Part shown: piece by piece, positions 835 through 20,853 of the stretch
Position numbering within the stretch: position 1 is the stretch's first letter
How the letters are laid out: every line of letters begins with the position of its first letter
Virus record (IMG/VR): IMGVR_UViG_3300005095_000130
Location: 1-25,267 of that record
Source: a virus
Direction: 5' to 3' (one strand)
DNA: 25,267 bases
Notes under the pieces: generated by a model
What the model saw: only the letters and a program-made list of their open reading frames with translations
Told to the model about the DNA's origin: nothing
The model's database searches: none
Translations under genes and position numbers: made by a program

Positions 835-1135
835 ATCGCTTGCCGACTTTGAGAAAAATGCAGCAGCCGAGTTCGCTCGGCTGATTACCGACATGATCAA
901 TGCTGGGGTGCTTCCCGATTACGGCAAATATGACTATCACGTCTTTGGCCGTGAGGTTGCAAAACTCGCCGTTTATGGGACCGAGGGCCATGCCGACGCT
1001 TACGTTGATGCTGCTGACTTCCTGCATCGGTACGGGGCGATGTCTGGCAAGCGCGAGCTGTACGTTGCCTCCGCTGTTCTGGGGGCTGCTGCCCGGGTGA
1101 TTCGGAAGAAGCTCGGCGAGGAGGCGGATGCGTGA
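824..1135 (+). CDS. Small hypothetical protein
   Basis: A 103-residue protein that I do not recognise. It is soluble-looking, mainly helical and Ala/Tyr/Asp rich, with a basic patch near the C-terminus (VIRKKLGEEADA). Its start overlaps the RusA gene by 11 bases and lies just after a GGTGGTGGAGG ribosome-binding sequence. Its TGA stop overlaps the GTG start of the next gene. The codons at its beginning are noticeably less GC-rich than in rusA or the following gene, which hints at a separate origin. No cysteine, membrane or nucleotide-binding motif is visible. It is likely an accessory protein of the phage early operon. Confidence 0.6.
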   Translation: MFPKSLADFEKNAAAEFARLITDMINAGVLPDYGKYDYHVFGREVAKLAVYGTEGHADAYVDAADFLHRYGAMSGKRELYVASAVLGAAARVIRKKLGEEADA

Positions 1136-1704
1136 CCGCCGAGGAGCGCCAGCTCGCCGAGGCCTGGTACCAGGCCCTCCGTGCCTGGAAGACCCGAAAC
1201 CTCACCGATACCCTGCCCACCGGACCCCGCAGGACGCCGAAGGGGGCGGCGGTGCGGGTGGTCTGGGGGTGTCCGGTTTGCCGTTCGCTCCGAGCGCCCG
1301 AGTTCGACCTGGCCATTTTGGAGGCTCGAGCTCGCGGCGACGATCTGCGCCCGATCGTGCGGTGGATCGCGGAGGAGCTCCGCGTGCGTGAGGAGGTTGT
1401 GTGGACGCACGCCCGCGAGCACCTCGACCCGGCCCCGGCCCGCCCCCTGGTGGGGGAGTGGGCGCGGCGCCGGCGGATCGACCTCGGCGAGCACCTGCTC
1501 ACCCCGGCCGGGTGGATCCCGGTCGAGCGGGTGCTGGCGGTGATTCGGGAGGCGCCGGAGGAGTACCGGGTGCTCTTGGATCAGGTGCGGTTTGGGAAAA
1601 CACGCTTTCGGCGCCTGCTGGATGGTGATGGCTTTTTTCGAGATGCCCGTGCGAAGCGGGTTGGGGAGGCGGTTCTATGGTTCGCGAAGAAGCTGAAGTT
1701 TTAA
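1132..1704 (+). CDS. Putative zinc/helix-turn-helix DNA-binding protein (CxxC...HxxxH)
   Basis: A 190-residue protein starting at GTG 1132, which overlaps the preceding TGA (GTGA). It carries CPVC at residues 47-50 and an H-x3-H at residues 93-97. The 42 residues between them have the look of a helical DNA-binding unit. The same layout with almost the same spacing occurs in the small-terminase candidate at 6621 (C8/C11 and H52/H56), so the two may share a domain. The C-terminal half is basic and ends in FAKKLKF, compatible with nucleic-acid binding. It overlaps the csf1 gene by 28 bases, so it is co-translated with the type IV operon. A specific job (replication accessory, regulator or csf partner) cannot be read from sequence alone. 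Confidence 0.6.
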   Translation: MTAEERQLAEAWYQALRAWKTRNLTDTLPTGPRRTPKGAAVRVVWGCPVCRSLRAPEFDLAILEARARGDDLRPIVRWIAEELRVREEVVWTHAREHLDPAPARPLVGEWARRRRIDLGEHLLTPAGWIPVERVLAVIREAPEEYRVLLDQVRFGKTRFRRLLDGDGFFRDARAKRVGEAVLWFAKKLKF

Positions 1705-2477
1705 CGGTTTCCGGCCTTCTCTGGCGGGCGGCGGGGATGCCAGCACCGAAGTGGGAGCTGGAGCCGGCAGAAGGGCCTTGCGGGACCTGCGGGCGCCCGA
1801 TCACTGCAGGCGTCCCGCAGAAGGCGATCAACAGCCCGACGTTCGCGCAGCACTCCGACTACCTCAAGTACGGCAGCCACGTATGCGCGGCCTGCGCCTG
1901 GCTCTACGGGCTTGGGCGTTCCAGGCCGGGGAATTTCCTTGTGGTGGGGGAGCGGGTTTACTGGCCGGTGATCTCGCTTGAATCCGAAACCGAAGATCGC
2001 CCGTCGTGGCTCCGTGTTATCCGCGAGGTGGCGCGGATGGACCCCCGTCTGCCCGCTGCCGGCGTGTTGACCACTGACGTGAAGCCCCGCCTATGGCCGC
2101 GCACGCGGGTGGTCACGCTCAGGGCATTCGGGCTCTACGTGCACGCACCGGAGTATGACGTGTCCACCTTCGTGGAGCTTGACCTCGCGGAGCTTGAGCG
2201 CGTGGCCCTGGAGATCGGCGAAGCTCTGCGCCAGGGGTTCACGAAGACAGACGTCTACCACGGCCTGTGGCGCAACTACAAACGGATGCGGCGGTTGGGA
2301 AAGGAGGGGATAGAGCTGGAGAAACGCTTATCGGAGGTTCGGCAAAGTGAGGTTTTCGTCCCGGCGCTGGTGGTCGCCGGGGTTAGGAAAGGAGGGAAAC
2401 ATGGAACTGCTGGAAAATCTTACGGAGCAAGAGAAGCACGCGGTGAAGCTCATCAAAACGGCCTTGGACTTCTATAA
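1677..2477 (+). CDS. csf1: Type IV-B CRISPR-Cas Csf1, Cas8-like zinc-finger subunit
   Basis: Predicted large-subunit-like protein of a type IV CRISPR ribonucleoprotein. The 266-residue frame has two zinc-ribbon knuckles, C35-x2-C38 (CGTC) and C70-x2-C73 (CAAC), with an aromatic stretch between them (SPTFAQHSDYL) and AWLYGLG after, the layout known for Csf1. A GGGAGGCGG ribosome-binding site precedes ATG 1677; ATG 1737 is an alternative start but would still keep the zinc site. The assignment rests on the cysteines plus the downstream order cas11-csf2-csf3-cysH, not on a profile search. The last about 25 codons overlap cas11 by 77 bases and look unlike natural protein. Adding one G to the GGGG at 2381-2384 would place a TAG just before the cas11 ribosome-binding site, so the true C-terminus may be shorter. 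Confidence 0.72.
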   Translation: MVREEAEVLTVSGLLWRAAGMPAPKWELEPAEGPCGTCGRPITAGVPQKAINSPTFAQHSDYLKYGSHVCAACAWLYGLGRSRPGNFLVVGERVYWPVISLESETEDRPSWLRVIREVARMDPRLPAAGVLTTDVKPRLWPRTRVVTLRAFGLYVHAPEYDVSTFVELDLAELERVALEIGEALRQGFTKTDVYHGLWRNYKRMRRLGKEGIELEKRLSEVRQSEVFVPALVVAGVRKGGKHGTAGKSYGAREARGEAHQNGLGLL

Positions 2478-2823
2478 CGCCTACGACGGCATCGGGCTTT
2501 TCGCCGGGCCCGGGAGGTATGCGGCCCTTGAAGGGCGGGTGCGGATTGCGGCGGTGCAGAGCCGCACGCTCTTCGAGTTCTGGTCGCGCTTGCTCACCAA
2601 GATGCAGTGGCCGACGCCGCCTAAAAAGGCTGATGCGGTGATCCTTCCAATGCTCCGGCACGAAGACGAGCTCGGCGTGCTCCGGGTTCTGGCTGAGGAG
2701 GCCCCGAGTATCGTCATGCTGGCTAGGGCCTGGCACGACGAGGACAAGGCGGCTAGGAAGGAGGCCTGGGAGGAGGAAGAAGGCGCTACGGAGGACGAGG
2801 GGGTGCTTTTCGATGAAGTCTAA
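2401..2823 (+). CDS. cas11: Type IV-B CRISPR-Cas small subunit, Cas11-like
   Basis: A 140-residue, largely alpha-helical acidic protein sitting between csf1 and csf2, the place of the small subunit that lines the belly of type I/III/IV effector complexes. ATG 2401 follows a good AAGGAGGG site, so it is preferred to an upstream GTG at 2347. Features include a helical N-terminus, an aromatic helix (FEFWSRLL) and a strongly acidic tail (EEEEGATEDEG). No catalytic motif is visible, as expected for Cas11. The gene overlaps csf2 by 11 bases. Small subunits diverge quickly, so this call depends mostly on size, helical content and neighbours; a helical protein of another kind cannot be excluded without structure prediction. 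Confidence 0.62.
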   Translation: MELLENLTEQEKHAVKLIKTALDFYNAYDGIGLFAGPGRYAALEGRVRIAAVQSRTLFEFWSRLLTKMQWPTPPKKADAVILPMLRHEDELGVLRVLAEEAPSIVMLARAWHDEDKAARKEAWEEEEGATEDEGVLFDEV

Positions 2824-3664
2824 ACGGTACTGGATGGAGCTTGAGGCCGTGGAACCCGTGGCTCACGGGGATACGTTGACCGGGGTGGACAACGCCACCA
2901 ACACCCGGCTCTTCATGCGCTCGACGATGCTGGTTCGCGGTGTCCCGATGCGGGTGCCTGACATCAGCGAGAACGCCCTGCGAACGGTGGCGTTCCGGGT
3001 TCCCCTGGCGCTGCATCTGCTGGGGGCCCTCGGGGTCGAGAAGGGGACGCTTCCCCAGGCGGTGGTCAACCTGCTCTTCTCGGGCGGGAACATGGCAGCC
3101 GGCGCGAAGAGCCCGTCGAACGAGATCGAGCTCGGTCACCGCATCCGCGACCTTTATCCCAGCCTCGAGCTTCTTGGGGGCGCGGTGGACAGCTTTATCC
3201 TGCCACGATCCCGGTTGCGCCTGGCGGCCTGGCCGGTGGCGCGGGAGTTCCGTTGGGTTCTGGAACATGTGGCGCCGCATCTCGCCGAGGAAGCCGAGCG
3301 GGTTTCGGTGTTCGACCTCCTCTCCGAAGAGGTGCGCACCCGTGGCACGGGGACGGAGTCGGAGGGCAACCAGATGCTTTACCAGTACGAGGTCTTGGCC
3401 GCCGGGGCGCGGTTTTTCGTGGAGATCACCCTTGAGGCCGCGACTTCCCCGGCGGCAGAGGCGGCGGTGGCTGTTGCCCTGGAACACTGGGACGGCTATT
3501 TCGGCGGCCAGGCGCGTCAGGGGCGGGGGCGGATGGAGATTCGTAACGCCAGCCTGCCCAAGCCCGATGCATACCTCGAGCACGTCGATGGGCATGCGGA
3601 GGCCATGAAGGCCGGTTTGTTGGACGGCACGCTGGGAACGGGGCAGGTGGTATGCAGCCCGTAG
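2813..3664 (+). CDS. csf2: Type IV CRISPR-Cas backbone subunit Csf2 (Cas7-like RAMP)
   Basis: Predicted Cas7-family protein that would polymerise along a guide RNA to form the backbone of the effector. The 283-residue protein starts with a strand and then a loop rich in Asn/Thr/Asp (GVDNATNTRLFMRS), followed by SENALRTVAFR. This resembles the Arg-containing helix of Cas7/Csf2 proteins that contacts RNA. A later segment PSLELLGGAVDSFILPRSRL fits the hydrophobic-strand-Gly pattern seen in Csf2. Length is somewhat short for Csf2. Starts overlap: 11 bases with cas11 before and 13 with csf3 after. Seen directly: composition, order and overlaps. Inferred: RAMP fold and RNA binding. Confidence 0.72.
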   Translation: MKSKRYWMELEAVEPVAHGDTLTGVDNATNTRLFMRSTMLVRGVPMRVPDISENALRTVAFRVPLALHLLGALGVEKGTLPQAVVNLLFSGGNMAAGAKSPSNEIELGHRIRDLYPSLELLGGAVDSFILPRSRLRLAAWPVAREFRWVLEHVAPHLAEEAERVSVFDLLSEEVRTRGTGTESEGNQMLYQYEVLAAGARFFVEITLEAATSPAAEAAVAVALEHWDGYFGGQARQGRGRMEIRNASLPKPDAYLEHVDGHAEAMKAGLLDGTLGTGQVVCSP

Positions 3665-4476
3665 GCGATTTCGGTTACACGGACTGGGCCGAGGATGAGC
3701 CGGCACGCATTGGGCGTGTAACCGAGCTTCGTGAGGAGGCTTTTCCCGGCTCGTTTTTTTATGAGCTGTGGAAAACGTGGGCAAAGCAGCCCGTTCGTCT
3801 TGTACGGGTGATCGCCCACATGCTCGAACCTTACGTTCCAAGCGCTGGTATTCGCGTGCACCTTGACTCGATACTTGCTTGGGCGGTGGCAGACGCCTAC
3901 AGCGACAAAATCGAGGTGGATCGCCCCAGGGTGATTCCCATCCCGGCGGCGGCGCTGTGGACGGATGGCCAGCGGGTGCTTTGGGGTGTGGGGGATTTGG
4001 CCCCAGCACCAGGGCGGTGGATACGAGACAAGCGCTACCGCCATCGCCGTTACAAAGAGGCGGAGGCGGAGTGGTCCCAGCGCAAAAATGCTAACCGCTC
4101 CGTCGGCCGGTGGAAGGATAACCGCGTGCCGGTCGAAGCGGTTTTGACGCCTCGGGTGTGCACCTATGCTCTGGCGATCCCGGAGGCCTTGCGGGAAGTG
4201 CTCAAAGGGGTTACCCACATCGGCTCCAACACGTCCAGAGGGTACGGACGCGTCGATCGATGGGAGGTCGAAGAGGTGAAGCCGGAAGCGGACGACGTCG
4301 ACTTTCTTGCGAACACCTACATATTTCCGCTTCGGAACCTCCCAGCCGAAATGGGCGCGCATCCCAGCGGGCACGAATACCAGCCTGTAGTGGCCTGGGC
4401 TCCGCCCTACTGGTACCTGCCGTGGCACTCGCCCGGCTACGTGCCCCGGTCTAGAGCTCATGCGTGCCCTGGATAA
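3652..4476 (+). CDS. csf3: Type IV CRISPR-Cas Csf3 (Cas5-like RAMP)
   Basis: Predicted Cas5-like subunit that would cap the 5' end of the guide RNA in the complex. The 274-residue protein contains the glycine-rich loop NTSRGYGRVDRW at about residues 193-204, which matches the G-rich loop of Cas5/Csf3 RAMP proteins. Before it lies a long basic, Arg/Lys/Tyr-rich region (residues about 120-165) suitable for RNA contact. The C-terminus is aromatic and Pro-rich (PPYWYLPWHSPGY). It starts at ATG 3652 inside the end of csf2 and overlaps cysH by 17 bases. Base composition is a little lower in GC than the phage head genes. The call is supported by the Gly loop and by gene order; fold confirmation would need a profile or structure search. 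Confidence 0.72.
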   Translation: MQPVGDFGYTDWAEDEPARIGRVTELREEAFPGSFFYELWKTWAKQPVRLVRVIAHMLEPYVPSAGIRVHLDSILAWAVADAYSDKIEVDRPRVIPIPAAALWTDGQRVLWGVGDLAPAPGRWIRDKRYRHRRYKEAEAEWSQRKNANRSVGRWKDNRVPVEAVLTPRVCTYALAIPEALREVLKGVTHIGSNTSRGYGRVDRWEVEEVKPEADDVDFLANTYIFPLRNLPAEMGAHPSGHEYQPVVAWAPPYWYLPWHSPGYVPRSRAHACPG

Positions 4477-5194
4477 GGCGGCGTTCGCCGCGCACTACAG
4501 GACCGCGGCCTTCCGCCGTAGGGTGGACGAGGCCCGCCGGGGGGTTGAGCGATTCTGCGAGACCGCTTCTCACCCGGCGGTCGCCTTCTCTGGTGGCAAG
4601 GATTCAACGGTGGTTTTGCACTTAGTGCGTCAGGCGTGCCCCGAAGCCCCAGCGCTTTTTGGTCATGACGAATGGCTTTTACCGGAGACTGAGGAATACC
4701 TGTCCCGGGTGAAAGGCCTCATTACGTTTGCGTTCAGGGATCAGAAGCACGCAGAGTTCTTCCGTTCATGGGTAGACGGAGAGCCGCCGACGGACTACGT
4801 GTTTGAAGGTAATATCCCGGATTTTGTGCGCCGGATGGGGTACGACGGGCTTGCTTTTGGTCTTCGCATGGACGAGAACAGTTACCGCAAAATGCACGTC
4901 CGCAAGTACGGTCAGCTGTTCTTCTCGCGCACGCGGCGGATCTGGATGGCCTATCCGATTGCGCGCTGGAGCGTGCGCGACGTGTGGGCGTACATCGTGG
5001 GCAACGGCTTGGACTACAACCGCGCCTATGACCGCATGGCGGAGATCGGTGTGCCCTGGCGGGAGCAACGGGTGGGGCCGCTTGCGAACACCAGGGCACT
5101 CCGTGCTGGCCAGGCAGCGCTCCTGCGGCGGGGGTGGCCTGAGCTTTACGAGTGTTTTGCTGATACGTACCCCGAGGTGCGCAGATACGAGTAG
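4460..5194 (+). CDS. cysH: CysH-like PP-loop protein of the type IV-B CRISPR operon
   Basis: A 244-residue member of the adenine-nucleotide alpha-hydrolase (PAPS reductase/DndC-like) superfamily. The ATP-pyrophosphatase P-loop is explicit: SGGKDST at residues 44-50 after a hydrophobic strand (AVAF). Further conserved-looking segments are PALFGHDEWLLPET and YPIARWSVRDVWAYI, the second being the W-x2-W helix region common in these proteins. A cysH-like gene next to csf genes is the recognised hallmark of subtype IV-B. The C-terminal ECGIH-type catalytic cysteine motif of true PAPS/APS reductases is absent (it ends PEVRRYE), and there is no CxxC iron-sulfur site, so sulfate reduction is unlikely. 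It is the last gene of the overlapping operon; its role in type IV-B is not established. Confidence 0.85.
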   Translation: MRALDKAAFAAHYRTAAFRRRVDEARRGVERFCETASHPAVAFSGGKDSTVVLHLVRQACPEAPALFGHDEWLLPETEEYLSRVKGLITFAFRDQKHAEFFRSWVDGEPPTDYVFEGNIPDFVRRMGYDGLAFGLRMDENSYRKMHVRKYGQLFFSRTRRIWMAYPIARWSVRDVWAYIVGNGLDYNRAYDRMAEIGVPWREQRVGPLANTRALRAGQAALLRRGWPELYECFADTYPEVRRYE

Positions 5195-5234: not shown

Positions 5235-5426
5235 TTATGCCCTCTCTAAGGCCTTTTCGACCAACTCCAGCCACTCCGCGGAGTCCATGTCGGCCGCCTT
5301 GGCAATGGTGATCCCACGCTCCTGCAACGCCTCATACACCCGTTCTGCGTCCTCCTCCGTAGCCAGGTCGCCGAGCATCTGCCGTACTGCCTCGATCGGA
5401 TTCATATTTTCGATGAGCTTTTTCAT
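5235..5426 (-). CDS. Small acidic hypothetical protein, sole minus-strand gene
   Basis: A 63-residue acidic, helical protein (many Glu, Ala, Asp; ends VEKALERA) read on the minus strand, convergent with the cysH operon. It has a strong AGGAGG-type ribosome-binding site before the ATG at 5426, a perfect TTGACA -35 box and a palindromic operator in its promoter, so it is very likely expressed and regulated. I see no clear helix-turn-helix and do not recognise the family. Its place beside a CRISPR operon and its own repressible promoter make a regulator, an antitoxin-like protein or a small inhibitor possible, but nothing in the sequence decides among these. Confidence 0.6.
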   Translation of the reverse strand: MKKLIENMNPIEAVRQMLGDLATEEDAERVYEALQERGITIAKAADMDSAEWLELVEKALERA

Positions 5427-5445
5427 CTCCTACCTCCTCGCCTGT

Positions 5446-5474
5446 AGTGTAGCATGGTGCTAGCACCATGTCAA
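5446..5474 (-). promoter_or_regulatory. Sigma-70-type promoter for the minus-strand gene
   Basis: Read on the minus strand, TTGACA (5474-5469) is a perfect -35 box, followed after exactly 17 bases by TACACT (5451-5446) as the -10 box. The start codon of the 63-residue gene lies about 20 bases further on. The spacer is filled by an 18-bp palindrome. Confidence 0.7.
5453..5470. promoter_or_regulatory. 18-bp perfect palindrome, probable repressor operator
   Basis: CATGGTGCTAGCACCATG reads the same on both strands and occupies the -35/-10 spacer of the minus-strand promoter, the classic place for a repressor operator. The 8-mer GGTGCTAG from its left half (5456-5463) occurs again at 5497-5504, 41 bases away (close to four helical turns) and overlapping the likely plus-strand -10 element. 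One dimeric regulator could control both directions. Confidence 0.65.
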
Positions 5475-5498
5475 GCCCTACCCATATATATAGCGCGG

Positions 5499-5507
5499 TG
5501 CTAGTAT
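5499..5507 (+). promoter_or_regulatory. Possible extended -10 promoter for the 5528 gene
   Basis: TGCTAGTAT fits the extended -10 pattern TGnTAnnnT. No good -35 box is seen upstream. It overlaps the second GGTGCTAG half-site, and a strong GGAGGAGG ribosome-binding site follows at about 5513-5521. The start point would be only about 14 bases before the ATG, so the leader would be very short. Confidence 0.35.
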
Positions 5508-5527
5508 AGAGACGGAGGAGGTAGAGC

Positions 5528-5983
5528 ATGCCGATGGAGAGCAGCATCCAGGTATCCACCAGGCTCAGCCCATCCATACGCCCCGGCGCGGACATCGCGC
5601 GCCGCGCTGTCCAGATGTCCCCGACCGAGGTCGCCCGCCGCGACCTCGGTCGCTACTACGCCCTGCTCGAGCGCGCCAGGCGTTCGATGCGCGGGCTCTT
5701 TTCGCCCCGCGAGCTCGAGGCTCTGGCCTACGCGCTCGACTCGATGGCGAGCGTGGAGTCGCCGGAGCTGATCTACCTGGTTCCGGCCACGGTCGAGGAA
5801 GCCGTAGTCGATGAGCGCCTGTGCGAGCAGGCGCTCATCGAGGACTGCGAGGGGTTTTTGGAGCGCGTCAAGGGGCTGGACCTGGCCCAGCGCTATGCCA
5901 TAGTGGACGCGGTAAGTGCATACCTGGCGCGGCCTCGGGAAGAAAGGGGGGAAGAGGCATGGCGGGAGATCGGGATGATTTGA
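5528..5983 (+). CDS. Hypothetical mobile-element protein with RDLxRYYALL motif
   Basis: A 151-residue protein starting at ATG 5528 behind a strong GGAGGAGG site. The N-terminus (SSIQVSTRLSPSIRPG) is strand-like and polar. It is followed by the helical segment RRDLGRYYALLERARR at about residues 36-51 and LFSPRELEALAYALDSM. From memory, this RDL-x-RYYALL...E...L...DAL pattern occurs in short uncharacterised proteins of phages and conjugative elements; I know no biochemical function for them. The strand-then-helices start could be a ribbon-helix-helix-like regulator, which would fit the adjacent operator, but this is speculation. It overlaps the next gene by 25 bases. Confidence 0.6.
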   Translation: MPMESSIQVSTRLSPSIRPGADIARRAVQMSPTEVARRDLGRYYALLERARRSMRGLFSPRELEALAYALDSMASVESPELIYLVPATVEEAVVDERLCEQALIEDCEGFLERVKGLDLAQRYAIVDAVSAYLARPREERGEEAWREIGMI

Positions 5984-6432
5984 GCGCAAGGGTAGAGGCG
6001 GCGATTGATAGCGCCCTCGCCGAGGTGTTGATCTGGCATGAGCGCACCACGGTGCCGATCCGCGAGCTGATCCCGACCAGCATCCGGGGGCAGCGGCGAC
6101 AGAACATTCTGGATCTGCTTCGCCCCGCGCATGTGGTGCGCCAGCAGATCCTGGTTGGTGACAGGTTGGGCCCCCGCGAGTTGTCCCGCGATCTACCGGA
6201 GGCGTATGGCCTCGAGGTCCTGCTCGACCTTTTCGACGACAAACGCCTGCGCGATGCCTATGACGTCAGCAGGCGCGAGCTCAGGAACGTCAGAGCGGCC
6301 CGCACCTTGGCCGATGGATTTGCGGGCAATGAGGCCCTGCTTGCCTACATCGACGACCAGATCGCGTTTTTCGCCCGCGTGGCTGGGGTGTCGCGCACGA
6401 TACTGCATCGCCGGGGGATCCGCGTTTATTGA
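5959..6432 (+). CDS. Hypothetical protein
   Basis: A 157-residue protein read from ATG 5959, which lies after an AAGGGGGGAAGAGG ribosome-binding region inside the end of the previous gene; an earlier in-frame start at 5821 would overlap that gene far more. The protein is highly charged and helical, with many Arg/Asp/Leu repeats (LDLFDDKRLRDAYD) and no cysteine or membrane segment. I do not recognise it. It is the last gene before a rho-independent terminator, so it closes the short transcription unit that starts near 5500. It may act with the 5528 product. Confidence 0.6.
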   Translation: MAGDRDDLSARVEAAIDSALAEVLIWHERTTVPIRELIPTSIRGQRRQNILDLLRPAHVVRQQILVGDRLGPRELSRDLPEAYGLEVLLDLFDDKRLRDAYDVSRRELRNVRAARTLADGFAGNEALLAYIDDQIAFFARVAGVSRTILHRRGIRVY

Positions 6433-6470
6433 GCCATCCCCCGGTTTTTGGTAAGATTTCGCTAGGATAG

Positions 6471-6506
6471 GCAAACCCCTGCCCGGTGGCGGGGGTTTTG
6501 CTTTTT
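6471..6506 (+). terminator. Rho-independent terminator
   Basis: A GC-rich hairpin with arms GCAAACCCCTGCC (6471-6483) and GGCGGGGGTTTTGC (6488-6501) closes over a 4-base loop with one wobble and one bulge, and is followed by a T run (6502-6506). It ends the 5528-6432 transcription unit just before the tRNA. Confidence 0.8.
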
Positions 6507-6508
6507 GG

Positions 6509-6583
6509 AGCGGGGTGGAGCAACGGTAGCTCGCCGAGCTCATGACCCGGAGGTAGCGGGTTCGACTCCCGCCCCCGCGACCA
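6509..6583 (+). tRNA. tRNA-Met (CAU), initiator-like, CCA encoded
   Basis: A complete 75-base cloverleaf: acceptor AGCGGGG/CCCCGCG, D-stem GAGC/GCTC with a short 7-base loop, anticodon loop CTCATGA with CAT at 6541-6543, a perfect T-arm GCGGG-TTCGACT-CCCGC, discriminator A and an encoded CCA (6581-6583). Three features point to initiator tRNA: an unpaired 1-72 position (A-G), an A11:U24 pair, and near-identity to the bacterial fMet acceptor and D-arm. One oddity is an A30-C40 mismatch where initiators have the conserved G-C triple. An elongator Met or Ile2 identity cannot be fully excluded. The gene lies between a terminator and the terminase module. Confidence 0.85.
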
Positions 6584-10475: not shown

Positions 10476-11550
10476 AAAGCTCGAGCTCAGAGGTGCCCTG
10501 CTCCGCGCGCCCGACGAAGGGCGCGTGGTTCGTTTCAGGGCCTCGACGCCGGCGGTGGACCGCCACGGCACCATCGTGCGCCCCGAGGGGATCCGCGCCG
10601 AGAAGTTCGCCAAGAACCCGGTCTTCCTTTGGGGCCACGACGGTTACGGCGGCCTGGTGCCGCCCGACCCCGAATCGGTGATCGGGCGGGTGGTGGCCTG
10701 GGAGAAGTCGCCCGAGGCCTTCGACGTCGACGTCGAGTTTGCCCCCGCCGAGGTCAACCCAAGGGCCGAGATGGCCTTCCGCCTGGTGAAGGCGGGGTTT
10801 TTGAACGCGGTCTCCATCGGCTTCCTGCCGCTTCGCTGGCACGAGGAGCGCGTCCCCGGCGAGGGCGGGGCCGAGGAGGTCCGCGTGGTCTACGACGAGG
10901 TGGAGCTCCTCGAGGTCAGCCTGGTGCCGGTGCCGTCGAACCCCGAGGCGGTGGCCCTGGCCCGCGACATCGCCACCGCTCTCACCCGCGGGGTGGTGCC
11001 CCGGGACGTGAGCGAGAAGCTCGCCTCCGAGGACACCCCCTGGAAGAAGCCGAACCTCGAGGACTTCACTGAGAAATCCTGGGACGAGCTCACCGAGCGG
11101 GAGAAGCGGCGCATCGCCGGCCACTACGCCTGGGCGCCCAAGCTTCCGCCAGAGCGCTTCTCCGACCTAAAACTGCCGCACCACCGCCCTGAGGACGGCG
11201 CCGTGGTCTGGAACGGCGTGCGGGCGGCGATGGCCGCCCTCTTCGGCGCCCGGGGCGGCGTCGACATCCCCGACGAGGACCGGCGCAAGGTCTACAACCA
11301 TCTGGCGCGTCACTACCGCCAGTTCGACAAGGAGCCCCCGGAGTTCAAGCGCTACACAGCGGAGGAGCTCCGGGCCCTCTTCCCTGATCTGGTGGCCGAC
11401 GCGGAGCCGCGCGGCGAGGCCTCTCCCCCGGAAGGGGCAGACCTCGAGGCCGAAGCGGCAGCGCTCCGCGAGGCGCTAAGGGCCTTCAAGGCCAAGGTGG
11501 CTGCGGGGGTGCTCCGCAGCCGAATCGAGCAACTGCTCAAGGAGGTTTGA
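10468..11550 (+). CDS. HK97-like prohead protease (S78) with extra C-terminal domain
   Basis: Capsid maturation protease. The N-terminal about 180 residues match peptidase family S78: the catalytic His lies in FLWGHD (H57) and the catalytic Ser in LNAVSIGF (S115), followed by the LEVSLVPVPSNPEA strand-turn that marks the family. Residues about 195-300 form an additional domain (WDELTEREKRRIAGHYAW ... LPHH ... RGGVDIPDEDRRKVYNHLARHY) that is not part of the classic protease. From memory, similar extensions occur in other phage proteases. The last about 50 residues are a charged coiled coil (AEAAALREALRAFKAK), likely scaffold-like. ATG 10468 overlaps the portal gene; the stop lies 2 bases before the capsid start. 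Confidence 0.88.
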   Translation: MTEKLELRGALLRAPDEGRVVRFRASTPAVDRHGTIVRPEGIRAEKFAKNPVFLWGHDGYGGLVPPDPESVIGRVVAWEKSPEAFDVDVEFAPAEVNPRAEMAFRLVKAGFLNAVSIGFLPLRWHEERVPGEGGAEEVRVVYDEVELLEVSLVPVPSNPEAVALARDIATALTRGVVPRDVSEKLASEDTPWKKPNLEDFTEKSWDELTEREKRRIAGHYAWAPKLPPERFSDLKLPHHRPEDGAVVWNGVRAAMAALFGARGGVDIPDEDRRKVYNHLARHYRQFDKEPPEFKRYTAEELRALFPDLVADAEPRGEASPPEGADLEAEAAALREALRAFKAKVAAGVLRSRIEQLLKEV

Positions 11551-11552
11551 AC

Positions 11553-12788
11553 ATGGACGGGATCGTCAAAGAACTGGAACAGGCGATCGCCCCCGTGGTG
11601 GGGGAGATCAAGGAGATTCGGCAGAAGCTCTCCAAGCTTGAGGCCGCCGGCGTAAAGCCGGACGACACCAAGGTCGCGGACCTCGAGGCCCGGCTCGCCG
11701 AGCTCGAGGAGAAGACCCGCCTCATCGAGGTCGGGGTGGTCGGCAAGCCCGAGCAGAAGCGGGTGGACGTGGACACCGCCCTGCTCGCGGCCGCCGCCCG
11801 GGTGATCCCCGAGGACACCGCCATCAAGCGGGCCATCGACAGCTCGGTGATCGCCAGCGCCGGCAAGCTCAACCCCGAGCAGGCCGACGCCTTCATCGAC
11901 TTCGTGGTCAAGGAGCAGGTCGCCCTCTCGATGGCCCGGGTGCGGCGCATGACCGCCCCGCAGGCCCTCATCGAGGAGCTCGCCGTCAGCGCGCGCAAGC
12001 TGCGCAAGGCCACCGAGGGCACCGCCCCCAGCCTGGCCGACGCCGTCAGCGCCAAGCGGCGGGAGCTCTCCACCGTCGAGGTGATCTGGGCCGAGGACAT
12101 CACGCTGACCTTCCTCGAGGACAACATCGAGCGGCGCGGGGCCGAGAACCACATCGCCCGCCTGCTGGCCACCCAATTCGGCAACGACCTGGCCGACCTG
12201 GGCTGGAAGGGCGACGAGGGCCTGGCGGCCACCATCACCGACAGCAACGGGGACGGCCTCGACGACACCACCGGGCTCACCCAGGCGGATCACAACTTCC
12301 TGCGCACCAACAACGGCTGGCTCAAGATCGCCGGGAGCGACCCCGCCGCCCACGGTTACGACGCGGCTTCGGCGACGAAGGTCTCCGACATCTTCAAGGC
12401 CATGCTCAAGCTCCTGCCCGACAAGTACCGCGGGCTTGAGCTCGTCTTCTTCGTGCCCCCGGAGACCGCCGACGCCTACGCCAACGAGCTCGCGAACCGC
12501 GGCACCAACCTGGGCGACACCGTGATGGTGCAGGGGGTCCCCACCCTGCGCTACTTCGGTTACAAGGTGGTGGCCGACCCCTACCTCCGCAAGGAGGGCA
12601 ACCTCAGCCGCCGGGCGATCCTCACCATCCCCGACAACCTGGTCTTCGGCATCCAACGCGACATCACCATCGACGCCCAGTGGCAGCCGCGGAAGCGGGT
12701 GGTGGAGTACACCATCACCGCCCGCAACGACTACGAGTTCGCCAACGCCGACGCGGTGGTGCTCGCCAGCAACATCCCCGAGCTCTAA
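11553..12788 (+). CDS. Major capsid protein (HK97 fold)
   Basis: The 411-residue shell subunit. The first about 70 residues are a charged coiled coil (IKEIRQKLSKLEAAG...LEARLAELEEKTR), like the delta/scaffolding domain that HK97 proteases remove. The body contains typical capsid features: a long N-arm, the spine helix (NHIARLLATQFGNDLADLGWKGDE), and the C-terminal beta region (GVPTLRYFGYKVV, DNLVFGIQRDITID). ATG 11553 sits 7 bases after GGAGG and is preferred to TTG 11547. A short Ca-binding-like loop DSNGDGLDD at residues 230-238 is unusual. Family assignment (P2/Mu-like group within the HK97 fold) is by general pattern. Gene order after the protease supports it strongly. Confidence 0.88.
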   Translation: MDGIVKELEQAIAPVVGEIKEIRQKLSKLEAAGVKPDDTKVADLEARLAELEEKTRLIEVGVVGKPEQKRVDVDTALLAAAARVIPEDTAIKRAIDSSVIASAGKLNPEQADAFIDFVVKEQVALSMARVRRMTAPQALIEELAVSARKLRKATEGTAPSLADAVSAKRRELSTVEVIWAEDITLTFLEDNIERRGAENHIARLLATQFGNDLADLGWKGDEGLAATITDSNGDGLDDTTGLTQADHNFLRTNNGWLKIAGSDPAAHGYDAASATKVSDIFKAMLKLLPDKYRGLELVFFVPPETADAYANELANRGTNLGDTVMVQGVPTLRYFGYKVVADPYLRKEGNLSRRAILTIPDNLVFGIQRDITIDAQWQPRKRVVEYTITARNDYEFANADAVVLASNIPEL

Positions 12789-19633: not shown

Positions 19634-20853
19634 TGTGGGTTTTGATAGGAAGAGGGATTGGCATACCGGATGCCCCGATAACTGAGGGGCCACAGCGACC
19701 TAAAGATGAGTTGAGTGTTGAAATCGGGTCCGGAAGAGCAAAATCTCTCTCATGGCAAGCTGGCGACTTGGGACTCAATCCCTACAGCAGAGTAGCCCTG
19801 TATATCCACGGGTCACTTGTATTTGAGGGCTACGTCACTACTGCCTGGCGTGGCGCGAATTGTCCACAAACATGGAATGCTGAGGGCGATAAAGAAATCC
19901 CGCATAGTGATATATTTGACGCACGCAACTTGCCGGCCCAAAAAATACCGGTAGCCATAAACGCCGTGGACGCTTGCTCGCGTGGTGTTGCTACAGCAGA
20001 GTTGCACGCCATTGGTGGAACATTAAAGGGCAGCGAACTTAACAAGCCGTACACCGCCCTTAAGGGTCTCATTGCGGAGGCCGTGGAAAATGACCAACAT
20101 AGTTGGCTGAAGCGGGAAAAGCGCACGCGCTATACCGGGGAACTGCCCTGGGTGGAGGTGCAGCCTAATGTCGTCGAGGCCGACAGCGTTATCAATATGG
20201 ATAACCCAAGCGGGCCGCTGGACGGAAATGTGTCGGCTACCGAGGACACGAGTCAACCGTCAATATGGTTAGCAAAAGTGCATTTCCCAAATAAAAAACT
20301 GCCGCTCCGGGTAACCGCGAAGCTCAATTCGCCGACTGGCGCTATTTTGCACTACTACGTGGAGTGGATCCTGAGCACCCAATCTGGGCACCTGTCGACA
20401 TGGCCAGACTACGCTGCGATTTTGGGTACTGTACGCCTGGATTCAAATTGGAAAACATATGTTTTCCAAATTCCACGCCCCCCCAGATCGAAAGCAAAAG
20501 AGCCTTGGGTATGGTTGGACTTTCGAGTTTTGAGCGGAGATCTGCGAGTGGGGCCGGTTGGGTTTTGGCTGCCAGACACAACGCCACTCCGCGAGGCGGC
20601 AGCGGCGCTATTGCGCCGCCAGCCTACGGCGGCCTTAGCCATTGAGGTGCGCGGGTTCGTGCCCCCTGCCAGACATGTTGATACGGCGGCAGGGGGTATC
20701 AGCCCAAAACGCATTGTTTACCAAGTCAAAGGCAGCGACATTATAACTCGTCTCTACTCCGAGGACACGGGCAATAACCCGGTGGCCGCCACCGTACGGC
20801 GCATGTCAAGCGAGGACGCGTCGAGCGTACGATCAATCGTAGCGGATGTGTAG
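19630..20853 (+). CDS. Tail-tip / baseplate-region protein, AT-richer than its neighbours
   Basis: A 407-residue protein immediately after the tape measure, the place of distal-tail or baseplate components. The ATG at 19630 overlaps the preceding stop. The N-terminal about 80 residues are beta-rich (LSVEIGSGRAKSLSWQAGD...VALYIHGSLVFEGYV). This resembles the first beta-sandwich part of phage tail hub proteins, but I cannot confirm it. A middle region of about residues 195-330 looks like a carbohydrate-binding-type beta domain (LPLRVTAKLNSPTGA, WVWLDFRVLSGDLRVGPVGFWL). Base composition and codons are visibly less GC-rich than in the head genes, suggesting acquisition by recombination. Confidence 0.6.
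   Translation: MMWVLIGRGIGIPDAPITEGPQRPKDELSVEIGSGRAKSLSWQAGDLGLNPYSRVALYIHGSLVFEGYVTTAWRGANCPQTWNAEGDKEIPHSDIFDARNLPAQKIPVAINAVDACSRGVATAELHAIGGTLKGSELNKPYTALKGLIAEAVENDQHSWLKREKRTRYTGELPWVEVQPNVVEADSVINMDNPSGPLDGNVSATEDTSQPSIWLAKVHFPNKKLPLRVTAKLNSPTGAILHYYVEWILSTQSGHLSTWPDYAAILGTVRLDSNWKTYVFQIPRPPRSKAKEPWVWLDFRVLSGDLRVGPVGFWLPDTTPLREAAAALLRRQPTAALAIEVRGFVPPARHVDTAAGGISPKRIVYQVKGSDIITRLYSEDTGNNPVAATVRRMSSEDASSVRSIVADV

Follow-up and report, generated by a model that had tools for sequence, protein, structure and literature searches.

A viral DNA stretch of 25,267 nucleotides, here called the window, contains a control region between positions 5427 and 5527 from which genes diverge: a conserved 63-aa gene on the minus strand (5235–5426) and, on the plus strand, 5528 (5528–5983, 151 aa) and 5959 (5959–6432, 157 aa), the second gene of the cassette. 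The locus raises the question of which protein controls this region, in which direction and at which site.

A promoter filled by a palindrome

The 63-aa gene is driven by a sigma-70-like promoter, TTGACA-17-TACACT (5474–5446, minus strand), the sole match of a consensus scan of the whole window, in agreement with a sequence-only reading that had named this region the only clear regulatory hub. That reading had also called the promoter perfect, which holds for the -35 hexamer TTGACA (5469–5474; 6/6, identical in the related contig described below) and not for the promoter as a whole: the -10 hexamer TACACT (5451–5446) fits at 4/6 positions and aligns with TAACAT in the related contig, so that 10/12 bases match the consensus, with a TG ahead of the -10. 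The expected palindrome was found in the spacer of this promoter as a perfect 18-bp sequence, CATGGTGCTAGCACCATG (5453–5470), centred 7 nt after the -35. It occupies 16 of the 17 spacer bases and the final two of the -35, and is our proposed main operator. Scanning the 25-kb record for the same palindrome, as had been suggested, gave no further copy. From the promoter spacing, the minus-strand transcript is expected to start at about 5439; because the palindrome lies upstream of this start it would not be transcribed from the minus-strand promoter, which argues against a role as RNA.

The proposed half-site 41 bases away was also recovered. Three copies of the element GGTGCTAG are present in 25 kb, all of them in the control region, two within the palindrome and one at 5497–5504 (0.59 expected; 1 of 100 shuffles reached three). 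A longer repeat, TAGCATGGTGCTAG at 5450–5463 and TAGCGCGGTGCTAG at 5491–5504 (plus strand), is 12/14 identical over a distance of 41 bp; its second copy, proposed as a weaker site, is a half-site only, with the right half of the palindrome unmatched there. This copy overlaps, as had been claimed, an extended -10 (TGC-TAGTAT, 5499–5507, plus strand) that we read from the sequence and propose for the plus-strand operon, but the promoter itself is weak, with 4/6 matches in the -10, a poor -35 (TACCCA) and no hit in the promoter scan of the window.

By length, the palindrome is not rare at the scale of the window, as 0.26 perfect palindromes of at least 18 bp are expected per 25 kb, but it is rare for an intergenic region of this size: one is present in 0.27% of 101-bp random sequences of the region's composition, or in 0.8% when loops of up to 4 are permitted. 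Within a coding region, at 20448–20469, lies a perfect palindrome of 22 bp, TTGGAAAACATATGTTTTCCAA.

Exchange of the cassette between related phages

The 63-aa gene has one detectable relative, located on an 18-kb viral contig (L002/L006) and 82% identical in protein sequence. The window and this contig have only short blocks in common. One extends from the 63-aa gene across its promoter as far as 5482 (window 5251–5482 against L006 9494–9725, 81% match). The other starts at the terminator after 5959 (CCGGGGGA...TCCCCCGG then TTTTT; 6411–6449, plus strand), which is conserved in L006 and forms the right edge of the cassette; 6432–6515, beyond the regulator, matches at 83.5%. Within the shared promoter, the -35 is identical at 6/6 positions and the leader at 18/19, as opposed to 4/17 in the spacer (Fisher p about 1e-6). 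The slot between the common blocks holds a single XRE repressor gene in L006 (HTH_3, E 2e-10) and two genes, 5528 and 5959, in the window. The control region of the related contig has an operator of its own with two sites, whose 21-nt inverted-repeat arms are 95% complementary and start 40 bp apart; by our reading, the copies overlap both promoters.

The alignment, made against one comparison contig (L006), indicates that operator and regulator were swapped as one unit inside a fixed promoter frame. Exchange of an operator together with its regulator is typical of phage immunity regions. The earlier proposal that the region controls divergent genes and has its operator in the spacer gains support here, as L006 keeps the promoter frame while the spacer is replaced along with the regulator gene. 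Since the operator changes with the cassette, the regulator should be the product of 5528, of 5959 or of the two together. Of the three candidates named in the sequence-only reading, this speaks against 5235, the 63-aa gene, which is conserved while the operator changes; 5959 is disfavoured by its lack of detectable relatives, leaving 5528 as the favoured one.

Three further features of the two records were recorded alongside. A tRNA-Met gene (6509–6583) directly follows the cassette terminators in the window, and none was found in L006. Window 1133–1559, within a 190-aa gene, is 92% identical in DNA to L006 6642–7071, which suggests recent exchange between otherwise mostly unrelated records. 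Directly after the XRE cassette, L006 carries a PAPS-reductase-like gene and then a ParB-like gene (10512–11956), and a cysH-like gene is therefore found near the region in both phages.

The 5528 family and its link to AcrIE10

No Pfam model matched the 5528 protein with an E cut-off of 10, and no PHROG model with one of 0.1, DNA-binding models in both collections included. Single-sequence searches with 5528 and 5959 in viral contigs and phages found no relatives, and neither did profile scans of the genome collection with the 63-aa and 5528 profiles. Relatives of 5528 surfaced only through a plasmid match and a profile: a protein of 47% identity on an Allomeiothermus silvanus plasmid, a single match that suggests a Thermaceae host, and six more in viral contigs from the profile search. 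The family, which is unannotated, has eight members.

An AlphaFold model of the 5528 protein (pLDDT 84) found AcrIE10 entries as its best PDB matches, including the AcrIE10–DNA complex and a Cas7 complex. VIA aligned 111 residues of the model to the DNA complex (PDB: 9m7t), with Z 8.6 as opposed to 3.9 for the next unrelated row, while Foldseek gave a probability of 0.98 but an E of 0.5; the viral structure library yielded no significant match to the model. At the sequence level, hhalign connected the family profile with AcrIE10 at E 2e-5 and 2e-6, and the profile scored 41.3 against two AcrIE10 sequences (best of 200 column shuffles, 18.3). Fold and detectable sequence homology thus both place the 5528 protein with AcrIE10, and we regard the family as homologous to it on the strength of profile and model. 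Published studies describe AcrIE10 as dimeric, as a binder of Cas7e and as an inhibitor of Cascade assembly (PMC13131331; PMC12740422). The present results link an unannotated phage and plasmid protein family to AcrIE10 and show an AcrIE10-fold gene pair in the place that a classical XRE repressor occupies in a relative.

By eye, members of the 5528 family share an N-terminal strand-helix-turn-helix pattern, also visible in AcrIE10, followed by a helical C-terminal part. The pattern appears to resemble that of ribbon-helix-helix proteins. The family gave no match to the Pfam ribbon-helix-helix models, a search in which HMMER filters drop weak matches and the fold has diverged; the monomer model has helices at residues 21–26 and 32–54 and no strand in residues 1–16, where pLDDT is <50.

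Palindromes recur at the promoters of relatives. We examined 18 exact TTGACA hexamers at family loci outside the window. For three of them, in L008 and L009 (both GCCTAGGC) and L011 (TGTATACA), a palindrome of 8 bp or more has its centre exactly 7 nt downstream of the hexamer, matching the window. Each of the three belongs to the promoter of a family gene, of the gene diverging from it or of the operon that contains it, with a chance of about p = 5e-5, or 2e-3 if L008 and L009 are counted once. The Allomeiothermus copy carries TCATCTATAAtacTTATAGATGA over its -10. The operator sequences vary among family members, and no single motif ties the family to a site. In L011, three copies of GTATAC (4489–4530) extend across a TTGACA promoter upstream of a two-gene operon with a 5528 relative, and a PAPS-reductase-like gene is found just upstream.

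On plasmids of Klebsiella and Shewanella, the acrIE10 operons, whose proteins are 61% identical, share a conserved upstream palindrome, TGTATGACAnnTGTCATACA (L027 315–334; L026 1006–1033), which is likely the AcrIE10 operator. A palindromic site near the promoter of the own operon is accordingly present both in the window (5453–5470) and in these two operons. A collection scan for TTGACANNGTGCTAGCAC, aimed at the operator of the window within a promoter, returned six stretches, of which only L020 and L024 are promoter-like, unlike the identical pair L021/L022 and the stretches L023 and L025, which were set aside. In the unrelated phage L024, AAGTGCTAGCACTT (3333–3350, minus strand) fills the spacer of a TTGACA/TACACT promoter that precedes a small gene with a ribbon-helix-helix-like sequence (weak Pfam RHH_1 match, E 0.14), beside a DNA methylase-like gene. 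A literature search on GTGCTAGCAC returned only papers that were unrelated, judging by their titles.

Proposed regulation and relation to known systems

Taken together, we consider it probable that an exchangeable phage regulator cassette has its divergent promoter-operator here and that the 5528 protein, by binding to the palindrome, acts as repressor of the 63-aa gene. Most likely it would repress both directions, and control of both by one protein is plausible. As a probable DNA-binding regulator, judged by profile, structure model and family comparison, 5528 is predicted to encode a dimeric protein of AcrIE10 fold, probably of ribbon-helix-helix type. One such dimer, or two, on 5453–5470 between -35 and -10 would block RNA polymerase and keep the 63-aa gene off; at higher concentration, or with lower affinity, the protein would occupy the half-site at 5491–5504 over its own -10 and so limit its own synthesis. 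Looping over the 41 bp, about four helical turns, is conceivable but gains no support here.

The regulator might instead be the 5959 product, 5528 and 5959 acting jointly, or a host factor, with the palindrome as its operator and 5528 as a passenger (e.g. anti-CRISPR-like). We hold this to be unlikely. The product of 5959 shares the cassette and operon with 5528, either gene could replace the single repressor gene in the L006 slot, and a protein without known relatives is unconstrained; palindromic promoters, however, recur beside the 5528 family and not beside 5959, and it is AcrIE10, the structural relative of the 5528 protein, for which a DNA complex has been solved. Searches with 5959 found no relatives and no DNA-binding family match, though its model (pLDDT 52) is too poor to search or judge. 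A full lambda-like bistable switch, with looping or cooperation by a repressor dimer on palindrome and half-site and with the 63-aa protein as a Cro-like opponent, seems more doubtful still. The divergent genes, the two sites 41 bp apart, the comparable 40-bp spacing beside the XRE repressor of the related contig and the conservation of the 63-aa gene would all suit such a switch, but no DNA-binding model matched the 63-aa protein, the scanned ORFs yielded neither an integrase nor a lysogeny gene, and the second site is a half-site only.

We consider it very improbable that the palindrome arose by chance or serves as a DNA/RNA structure, with no protein dedicated to binding it. The expected number per window and the longer example in coding sequence show that such palindromes do arise, but this one lies in the sole promoter found, in a segment replaced between relatives, with a repeat nearby and the same position in relatives, and upstream of the likely transcript start.

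The genes at 1677–5194 (plus strand) form a type IV-B set of csf1, a cas11-like gene, csf2 (Cas7-like) and csf3, then a cysH-like gene; the same record carries phage terminase, portal and tail genes. The end of the set and that of the convergent 63-aa gene are 41 bp apart, and the minus-strand transcript enters cysH (4460–5194, plus strand) at the 3' end. Because the CRISPR genes, starting with csf at 1677, are convergent and on the plus strand, the hub does not drive them; direct control of the operon is ruled out by gene orientation, and the link that the sequence-only reading had drawn to it is unsupported. A regulatory connection could arise only via protein contact, for instance between the AcrIE10-like protein and a Cas7-like subunit. 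The 5528 protein, with its AcrIE10 fold, may be a dual-function switch, acting as repressor at its own divergent promoter and also binding a Cas7-type subunit (a host CRISPR effector or the phage's own Csf2), so that operator occupancy would sense CRISPR effector levels, an extension that we regard as speculative and rather unlikely.

For a phage with type IV-B CRISPR genes of its own, these results point to the likely regulator and operator of the one promoter hub that was found. If the family is regulatory at its root, AcrIE10 may be a repressor recruited as an anti-CRISPR.

Among known systems, the XRE/CI-type immunity regions represented by L006/L002 have the same slot, divergent layout, conserved 63-aa gene and terminator, and sites 40–41 bp apart; the window differs in its operator and in the two genes that fill its slot, the HTH_3-type gene of the related contig being absent from both 5528 and 5959. 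Ribbon-helix-helix (CopG/Arc-like) repressors have an N-terminal pattern that, by eye, is similar to that of the 5528 family, which differs in its fused helical C-terminal domain and in having no strand modelled in the monomer; the weak RHH_1 match in L024 adjoins a GTGCTAGCAC promoter. AcrIIA15 and similar self-repressing anti-CRISPRs combine own-promoter repression and CRISPR effector inhibition in one protein, an established design (PMC10901769), but AcrIIA15 has an HTH N-terminal domain and targets Cas9, and we claim no homology to 5528. AcrIE10 itself, a Klebsiella plasmid anti-CRISPR (PDB: 8ji9, 9m71, 9m7t), is about 17% identical to the longer 5528 protein, and its palindrome lies upstream of the -35 instead of in the promoter spacer; the two have in common the fold, as judged by model and profile, a similar small size and a palindrome before the operon, and AcrIE10 is known to dimerise and has a solved DNA complex.
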